DNA of 5,518 nucleotides from Lachnospiraceae bacterium (GTDB taxonomy: Bacteria; Bacillota_A; Clostridia; Lachnospirales; Lachnospiraceae). This document shows, one piece after another, positions 4,254-5,518 of this stretch. The stretch covers positions 1 to 5,518 of the forward strand of contig JAISHZ010000386.1 of assembly GCA_031262285.1 (NCBI GenBank), read 5' to 3'. Each line of letters begins with the position of its first letter. The stretch's first letter is position 1. Position numbers and translations under genes: made by a program. The notes under the pieces are model-generated. The model had not been told where the DNA came from. It made no database searches and saw nothing but the letters and a program-made list of their open reading frames with translations.

Positions 4254-4357
4254 CGTTCGTTACGTGGAGATAATAAGTTTGTTGTTCAGACGAAGCACGT
4301 TCGTTGCGCGGACATAGCAAGTTTGTCGTTCAGACGAAACACGTTCGTTGTGCGGAC
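4254..4357. repeat. 44-bp tandem repeat, 2.4 units, upstream of purM
   Basis: Unit 1 is 4254-4297, unit 2 is 4298-4341, and the first 16 bp of a third unit are 4342-4357. Units 1 and 2 agree at 37 of 44 positions, and unit 3 matches unit 2 at 15 of 16 before similarity stops abruptly. Each unit begins CGTTCGTT and ends GTTCAGACGAARCA. The unit junctions form an interrupted palindrome, ACGAA-5 nt-TTCGT, at 4290-4304 and 4334-4348. The array begins 44 nt upstream of the purM start codon, so in a read-through transcript it would be leader RNA. It ends exactly where the inverted-repeat structure begins. The function is unknown; paired protein-binding sites or slippage-generated repeats are both possible. 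Confidence 0.9.
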
Positions 4358-4513
4358 GAACCGAACAGGCGGAAAGCTCTCCGGGTACTAGGCTCTCTGA
4401 CCGTTCCGATGAGCCCAGGTCTGTGAGATGAACGCGCAAGCAGGCGTTCATCTCGCATGGTCTCATCTCCACAGAACGCATAGTACCCGGAGAGCTTTCC
4501 GCCTGTTCGGTTC
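4358..4513. repeat. 156-bp structure with perfect 33-bp inverted arms
   Basis: The arms are 4358-4390 and 4481-4513 and are exact reverse complements over all 33 bp, around a 90-nt centre. The outer ends read GAACCGAACAGG and CCTGTTCGGTTC. The centre contains a further perfect stem and a short GGCTC/GAGCC pairing (4391-4395 with 4411-4415). No T-run follows on either strand, so it does not look like an intrinsic terminator. It has no coding capacity I believe, and I see no obvious target-site duplication. It looks like a MITE-like non-autonomous element, or DNA for a long structured RNA between purE and purM. The inverted arms are certain from the sequence; the identity is inference. Confidence 0.9.
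4425..4454. repeat. Perfect 11-bp hairpin nested in the 156-bp structure
   Basis: GAGATGAACGC (4425-4435) pairs with GCGTTCATCTC (4444-4454) across an 8-nt loop. The stem can extend by three more pairs, one of them a wobble in RNA. A second TCATCTC lies at 4463-4469, so GAGATGA (4425-4431) has two possible partners, and TCTGTGAGATGA (4420-4431) can pair with 4463-4475 with one bulge. This gives two mutually exclusive folds inside the large stem. Confidence 0.85.
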
Positions 4514-4521
4514 TGTGTATC
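4508..4521 (-). repeat. 14-bp dispersed repeat GATACACAGAACCG, copy 1
   Basis: On the minus strand this reads GATACACAGAACCG. It overlaps the last 6 bp of the right inverted arm and extends 8 bp outside it. The same 14 bp occur on the plus strand at 5489-5502. Counting the next six bases inward, 18 of 20 positions agree, while the bases outside GATACACAG do not, so the match has a sharp outer edge. Confidence 0.75.
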
Positions 4522-4748
4522 GGATGGCCTTATGATCGTGTATCTTTTCATTAATGTTTATATGTTGACGCCCGGGATTTTTTTGATTCAACCCTCGGAA
4601 AGGTTCTTGAATATTGAGATTCTGTTGGGAAAACTTGGTGTAATTTGACTCAAAATTCACCTCAATAAGGCTAAAAAATTGATTCTATGCGGACTTGAGT
4701 TGAGTTAGTCAAAAAAACAGTTGGGGTTAATATCGTATTGTTAAGTGG
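4514..4748. other. AT-rich non-coding gap downstream of purE
   Basis: No plausible gene lies here; frames are short, without convincing ribosome sites or family motifs. It is visibly richer in A+T than the adjacent inverted-repeat block. Small features seen are a palindrome TTTGA-C-TCAAA (4644-4654) and an 8-bp stem with a 3-nt bulge (4586-4593 with 4602-4612). On the minus strand there are also runs of T at about 4691-4697 and 4673-4678. The T-runs lack a strong hairpin in front, so termination after purE is unproven. On the minus strand TTGACT and TAGAAT are spaced 19 nt apart (4684-4714). This is a poor promoter candidate for purM because of the long spacer. Confidence 0.6.
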
Positions 4749-5488: not shown

Positions 5489-5502
5489 GATACACAGAAC
5501 CG
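5489..5502 (+). repeat. 14-bp dispersed repeat GATACACAGAACCG, copy 2
   Basis: This is an exact copy, in the opposite orientation, of the 14 bp at 4508-4521. The match continues to 18 of 20 positions before the sequence diverges into a G-rich run at the window edge. It may be the edge of another copy of the element family, lying upstream of purE and cut by the window end. Confidence 0.65.
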
Positions 5503-5518
5503 CACAGAGCCGGGGGGA

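Follow-up and report, generated by a model that had tools for sequence, protein, structure and literature searches.

The hairpin between purE and purM

The window, that is, the whole stretch of 5,518 nucleotides from a Lachnospiraceae bacterium analysed here, carries a long hairpin between two genes of the − strand, purE (TIGR01162, 4752-5264 without stop) and purM (TIGR00878, 3167-4210). Positions 4358-4390 and 4481-4513 are exact reverse complements of 33 bp each, separated by 90 nt, and form the only perfect inverted repeat of at least 16 bp with a gap of at most 200 nt in the window; once mismatches are allowed, the arms extend to 42 nt at 93%. For 4330-4540 on the + strand the folding energy is −125.8 kcal/mol; 200 shuffled sequences average −68.06 (sd 4.35), which corresponds to z = −13.27. 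The centre is itself structured, with an inner inverted repeat of 14 nt at 93% (4422-4435/4444-4457) enclosed by two more helices. These results confirm an earlier note on this DNA, which had described perfect 33-bp arms around a structured 90-nt centre between the two genes. The features are listed below, where R1 denotes a covariance model for the ~95-nt core shared by the repeat family to which the hairpin belongs (alignment A1 of five cores, window included) and A2 is an alignment fitted to R1.

4358-4390, no strand assigned: outer arm of 33 bp, exact reverse complement of 4481-4513; the 3' arm in the direction of the family core (− strand)
4481-4513, no strand assigned: outer arm of 33 bp, partner of 4358-4390; the 5' arm when read on the − strand
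4390-4482, − strand: conserved family core, co-directional with purE and purM; 79.4 bits with R1, of which the window is one of five seeds
4473-4478, − strand: helix 1, 5' side, partner of 4393-4398, with one mismatched position in the window copy; 6/6 pairs covary and 94.4% of cells are paired (A2)
4393-4398, − strand: helix 1, 3' side; covariation in alignment A2
4458-4467, − strand: helix 2, 5' side, GATGAG-A-CCA, pairs with 4408-4417; 9/9 pairs covary and 98.4% of cells are paired
4408-4417, − strand: helix 2, 3' side, TGG-G-CTCATC; covariation in alignment A2
4422-4457, − strand: inner hairpin with 14-nt arms (4422-4435/4444-4457), from the inverted-repeat listing and alignment A2; variable across the family
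5489-5518, + strand: start of a probable second copy in opposite orientation, from a match to GATACACAGAACCGnACAG; truncated at the window end, core beyond 5518

The pattern GATACACAGAACCGnACAG occurs twice in the window, at 4503-4521 (−) and 5489-5507 (+), the 19 bases at the outer edge of the window copy recurring in inverted form at the second site. Two matches were found in none of 200 shuffles, a post hoc test given that the pattern was derived from the same two sites with one base left free. A second copy, with its core outside the window, probably flanks purE. No target duplication of at least 8 bp was found around the window copy. The earlier note had also remarked on the lack of a T-run, and indeed none lies directly outside the stem on either strand, so the hairpin is without this mark of an intrinsic terminator; the terminator scan itself, limited to loops of 3-8, is blind to a stem with a 90-nt centre. 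We also noticed a 44-bp direct repeat (4254-4341, two units at 84%) that adjoins the hairpin on the purM side, and a further partial unit of it that runs into the hairpin arm.

In the window, 538 nt separate purE from purM. Among the 71 relatives with both genes placed, this gap has a median of 42 nt and is longer than 200 nt in only two, L006 (215) and L036 (535). The gap of L036 (purM at 10001) holds no core match. None of the PurM loci of 80 relatives has an R1 core between purE and purM. These best 80 PurM matches (69-75% identity) are mostly labelled Lachnospiraceae or genera placed there, with a minority labelled Clostridiales, Bacillota, Eubacterium, Ruminococcus or Bacillus. Of the 80 genomes behind the PurM loci, 50 were sampled, G001 not among them, and three of the 50 carry core copies: Butyrivibrio sp. 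LB2008 has 8, Kineothrix alysoides KNHs209 has 2, and the MAG RGIG4530 has 2.

A family of hairpin repeats in Lachnospiraceae

The window hairpin is one copy of an interspersed hairpin-repeat family in Lachnospiraceae. BLASTN of the element against relatives (20, then 397 genomes), which the earlier note had proposed as a check, returned only matches judged to be chance. Perfect inverted repeats with arms of at least 18 bp are found in the loci of five relatives, among them L080 (Butyrivibrio sp. LB2008), where 38-bp perfect arms surround a 97-nt centre that can be aligned with that of the window, the arms being unlike. A motif from the window and L080 gave four matches in three of 397 Lachnospiraceae genomes, and the reversed-pattern control gave none among the matches listed. 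Two candidates were dropped, L102, a motif match judged to be chance (21.5 bits with R1), and L099 (viral contigs), which is without a flanking stem. A stricter motif pattern matched nothing in viral contigs, and plasmid and phage collections held no match to the element.

The covariance search that the earlier note had suggested did recover the family: at E ≤0.01, R1 has matches in 21 of 397 Lachnospiraceae genomes, with a best E below 1e-6 in every one of them. Of 398 genomes drawn from across the phylum and searched at E ≤1e-4, the sole carrier was G001 (the genome of L001), with 0/397 among the others. R1 scored at most 10 candidates per genome in both searches, and copy counts of 10 are therefore floors. 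To avoid circularity, the window was left out of a second model, R2, which rests on the remaining four seeds. R2 recovers the core of the window at E 1.2e-6 (32.1 bits) when the window is searched by itself; in a search of 45 sources (930 kb) this core is the only match at E ≤1 (E 0.0002). This leave-one-out score is modest, and the window core is a distant member of the family. Two related genomes proved especially rich, with at least 28 copies in G251 and at least 44 in G431 (150 candidates scored in each), and no copies were found in the other 11 relatives of G251 searched.

Structure and covariation of the core

Over the 99 distinct rows of A2, 96.8% of 1482 core cells are standard pairs, against 77.1% after shuffling, and only 21-39% are paired when the partners are moved by 1-3 columns. 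Both members of a pair have changed in 345 cells, as compared to 96.8 (sd 14.3) in shuffles, and 15/15 pairs covary. RNAalifold on A2 returns the same two helices, with one additional pair on the first and two additional pairs beside the loop.

This strong covariation of both helices is what would be expected if the element were a structured cis-acting RNA whose stem and core are kept by selection on pairing through single-base compensatory mutations, its spread being incidental; the conserved unpaired bases around ATGGA / GGAATG and the apical GAAGCC..GCTGA seen in many copies point the same way. The kinds of pair that occur do not. The 1482 core cells comprise 1422 Watson-Crick pairs, 13 G-U, 7 A-C, and 40 others, and the mispairs of the outer arms include 133 G-T and 174 A-C (112/116 copies), so that G-T is not in excess. 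Because G-U pairs are few in the core and G-T does not exceed A-C in the arms, the usual wobble route of a single-stranded RNA is not seen in the covariation, and the arms are therefore no proof of RNA. The suggestion of the earlier note that structure is selected, perhaps as an undescribed RNA, keeps its footing in the core covariation, though with so few G-U pairs the arms do not prove it. Also at odds with a structured RNA, no Rfam family reaches its gathering score on any element searched (the window; L100, L101, and L103; nine loci of pairs). Models of plant miRNA precursors match the elements in L330, L331, and L334 far below gathering (best E 3.8e-6, 50.1 vs 137 bits), which may be what any long stem gives. 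Overall, we lean against the structured-RNA explanation, while holding it to be a serious possibility.

Nearly strict Watson-Crick pairing with many pair types, together with conserved unpaired bases in the core, would also be compatible with a DNA signal, in which a protein reads an extruded hairpin or cruciform and selection keeps the pairing of the DNA. Extruded hairpins are read by proteins at REP sequences, attC sites, and the ends of IS200-type elements. We consider such a signal unlikely, for reasons found in the arm changes and in the target duplications described below.

Outer arms and their changes at orthologous sites

Across 116 copies, the core is flanked by outer arms of widely differing length and sequence. 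With a filter that asks for arms of at least 18 bp, at most 6% mismatch, and a similar distance from the core, 55/116 copies pass, 27 of them with perfect arms, and 61/116 fail; many copies have short or imperfect arms. The element is ~160-170 bp long in the G251 alignment. Far longer arms occur in G127, where four are free of mismatches (86, 103, 107, and 116 bp) and the seven filtered copies have arms of 86-116 bp with an internal identity of 99.1%. In two genomes, the arms of sibling copies resemble each other no more than shuffled sequence does: by gap-tolerant alignment the likeness is 0.74 in G127 (shuffled 0.74; cores 0.90) and 0.74 in G251 (shuffled 0.77; cores 87%). The G127 arms do share some columns in a multiple alignment, and sibling arms are alike in G337 (0.97) and in eight aligned G196 copies.

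Twenty elements lie at the same site in G251 and G431, with both flanks aligned. In their arms, 654 columns are the same, 60 show a new matching pair through changes in both arms, 34 differ on one side only, and 16 are complex; a mismatch is present in both genomes in 204 columns, unpaired columns included. The 60 concerted columns are concentrated in seven pairs (16, 15, 13, 7, 4, 3, and 2) and the other 13 pairs have none. These columns are not equivalent to events, since the four-row alignment contains few gaps and a mirrored indel is counted as a run of columns; such register-shift runs occur in C1_1904776, C1_1135651, and C1_2668200. The pair C1_2919583/C11_79908 is free of register shift and has 13 columns substituted on both arms, the core and flanks being unchanged. 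One arm of C1_1921831/C42_30656 has 11 differing columns that are not mirrored on the other, possibly an intermediate not yet corrected. A donor for the changed arms of the three most-changed pairs was sought among the other fetched copies of both genomes, with no match.

The conversion between arms that the earlier note had put forward finds its counterpart in these mirrored changes at orthologous copies. Two-sided runs of 13-16 columns in three pairs, with none in 13 others, are not what single-base compensation in a structured RNA predicts, and selection at the DNA level alone also leaves the runs unexplained. We infer that one arm is copied from the other because the arms are matched, are unlike between copies, change in two-sided runs, and contain few wobble pairs. 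Template switching would be the likely means; the mirrored changes could also stem from rapid compensation under selection. Many of the copies common to the two genomes, whose flanks are 85-98% identical, still have unchanged or perfect arms, so that perfect arms do not in themselves mean a recent origin.

Core identity in the 20 pairs averages 96.3%, as compared to 90.6% for the upstream and 95.4% for the downstream BLAST-aligned flanks. In fixed 100-nt windows, where indels depress the values, the flanks reach 76.1% upstream and 91.5% downstream, and the core is higher in 19/20 and 16/20 pairs, respectively; the upstream comparison is a further point for a structured RNA. Two cores changed much (0.78 and 0.84). 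The core is kept clearly better than the upstream flank and about equally to the downstream flank, which is often near a reading frame. The near-equal conservation of the core and the BLAST-aligned downstream flank lowers the odds that the core is under selection.

Terminal repeats, target duplications and empty sites

MITEs are non-autonomous DNA transposons, and the family resembles them in being short, dispersed, multi-copy, non-coding, and mostly intergenic. In G196, copies end in TAGGnAATTGCGAAAC...GTTTCGCAATTnCCTA. These terminal inverted repeat (TIR) ends number 72 and 69 at ≤1 mismatch, against 0 and 1 for the controls. Exact repeats flank the 53 distinct TIR-bounded elements in lengths of 11 bp (10 cases), 10 bp (6), 9 bp (3), 12 bp (2), 13 bp (1), and 8 bp (1), and the mispaired-flank control gave a frequency of 0.0000 for exact matches of at least 7 bp. 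TIRs with target duplications are seen in some copies from G196, G418, G423, and G410; a strict duplication finder accepts 7/114 copies, only from G196 and G410, with none in the control.

The site of the element in L165 is empty in seven of 15 relatives (G415, G416, G417, G419, G422, G423, and G426), where the flanks lie 3-136 nt apart with no element match. The flanks are 219 nt apart in G418 and several kb apart in G420 and G421, and the remaining five relatives have one flank, none, or partial matches only. Together with the 80 PurM loci that have no core, these empty sites make the family variable in presence at orthologous sites, which is not the picture of a single-copy locus fixed at one site in all relatives that the earlier note had set against mobility. 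In some genomes the family is MITE-like, having TIRs, orthologous sites that are empty, and target duplications that mostly measure 9-12 bp. A transposon origin is established for one genome group, and we infer it for the rest of the family.

TIR-bounded elements range over ~50-330 bp, and the short ones are core-less where they were looked at. Core-less miniatures of ~55-131 bp with G196-type terminal repeats are seen in L236, L237, L299, and L230. As to an autonomous partner, no obvious transposase enclosed by both TIR ends was found in G196, where 20 stretches were fetched and six lone ends inspected by reading frames. A 1.16-kb TIR pair in G423 (L230) was considered as a candidate autonomous element and rejected, as it consists of two miniatures around ordinary reading frames, one of which, bordered by the two miniatures, reads like thymidylate synthase. 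A half element in L290 (~150-930, − strand reading), a single case, lies directly before a reading frame whose motif resembles that of a serine recombinase.

The TIRs, target duplications, and empty sites in G196 and its relatives and the existence of core-less miniatures would all be accounted for if the element were a plain MITE, with long TIRs that are perfect only from youth and with the core as a passenger. This account is already weakened by the orthologous pairs, where old shared copies can keep their perfect or unchanged arms; it also fails to explain that, unlike in a MITE, the interior core is conserved between genomes while arms and ends vary, and that the window copy has no duplication. 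We regard it as quite improbable. The MITE-like character proposed by the earlier note is thus borne out in some family copies and at the core-less PurM loci, and not by a duplication at the window. More generally, each of its three explanations of the perfect arms (insertion, conversion between arms, and selection on structure) finds support, for the family more than for the window copy. The target duplications also bear on the DNA-signal explanation, since they are contrary to what HUH elements lead one to expect; duplications of the target are not expected of HUH elements.

Placement and orientation

Among 173 copies, with crude gene calls (reading frames of at least 110 codons) and with copies of related genomes that are non-independent, genes point their 3' end toward the upstream side of the core in 98 cases and their 5' end in 43, and the downstream side is unbiased (79 and 88). 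Between tandem genes, the core is co-directional in 56 cases and opposed in 26 (P 0.0012; 42 and 17 without G431), and the window copy is co-directional with both purE and purM; non-tandem neighbours are convergent in 40 cases and divergent in 15. The preferred position downstream of a co-directional gene is another point in favour of a structured RNA.

Wherever two copies were found within 1.5 kb of each other, they are divergent (13/13 cases, or 11 once orthologous repeats are removed), a regularity that a DNA signal would accommodate. The window copy and the probable second copy on the far side of purE would follow this arrangement. Under the assumption that the four arrangements are equal, 11 divergent pairs would arise by chance with a probability of 0.25^11 = 2.4e-7. 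The spacers between the cores of paired copies (~130-710 bp) are unlike one another and no content common to the divergent pairs was seen, two of the pairs being orthologous. In L330 (998-1252), two tRNA genes (Val, Met) lie between the members of a divergent pair.

Comparison with known systems

Dispersed palindromic repeats, MITEs, and correction by template switching are each already known. REPs and REPINs are described as intergenic palindromic repeats with RAYT transposases (PMC3116915, PMC2817692); the present family is likewise intergenic and palindromic with neighbouring copies inverted, and differs from that description in its longer stem, its two-helix core, its target duplications, and the unlike spacers of its pairs. 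Template switching at inverted repeats is presented as an established process (PMC8794818, PMC8604942), and its corrective action has been studied in RNA genes, in yeast genes, and in an E. coli assay (PMC8794818, PMC8604942, PMC7202029). Common to that process and our data are imperfect inverted repeats that turn perfect and multi-base changes on both sides of a stem; here the setting differs, as the pattern is found at orthologous sites of a dispersed repeat family in bacteria. Concerted evolution of the arms of long perfect inverted repeats is also known from the mitochondria of Nematomorpha, where template switching was proposed (PMC6649704). Those palindromes are mitochondrial and lie within genes, and the passages considered do not present them as a dispersed family with a shared core. 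Among the open-licence papers listed by the searches, none names a family that unites a conserved, covarying interior with drifting matched arms.

Interpretation

We consider it probable that the element is an old mobile hairpin in which arm-to-arm copying through template switching preserves the match between the arms, with a core that is possibly under selection. The family would have spread as non-autonomous transposons moved in trans by a putative transposase. After insertion, the repeat would form a hairpin or cruciform at which the polymerase may switch template between the arms, so that a mutation of either arm would be transferred to its partner, leaving the two complementary even as their sequence diverges. 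The core would then be selected at individual sites, perhaps as a transcript structure downstream of a gene, here in the purE-purM message. This site-by-site selection is the least certain step. That the core has a job is suggested by its conservation and placement, and a role as RNA would be the likeliest one.

A bolder form of this proposal is that the mobile hairpin has turned into a part of the host, its core serving as a cis-acting structure of the 3' transcript at dozens of sites and its stem being rewritten blockwise from arm to arm; we find this rather doubtful. If it were true, the strength of the stem would be inherited without its sequence, and covariation, which is the standard evidence for a functional RNA, would here arise from a copying mechanism and not from two selected mutations.

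The work adds to gut-type bacterial genomes a repeat family of high copy number for which no Rfam model reaches its gathering score, and its mirrored changes at orthologous sites, with few wobbles, provide a natural test of whether stems are maintained by template switching or by selection alone.
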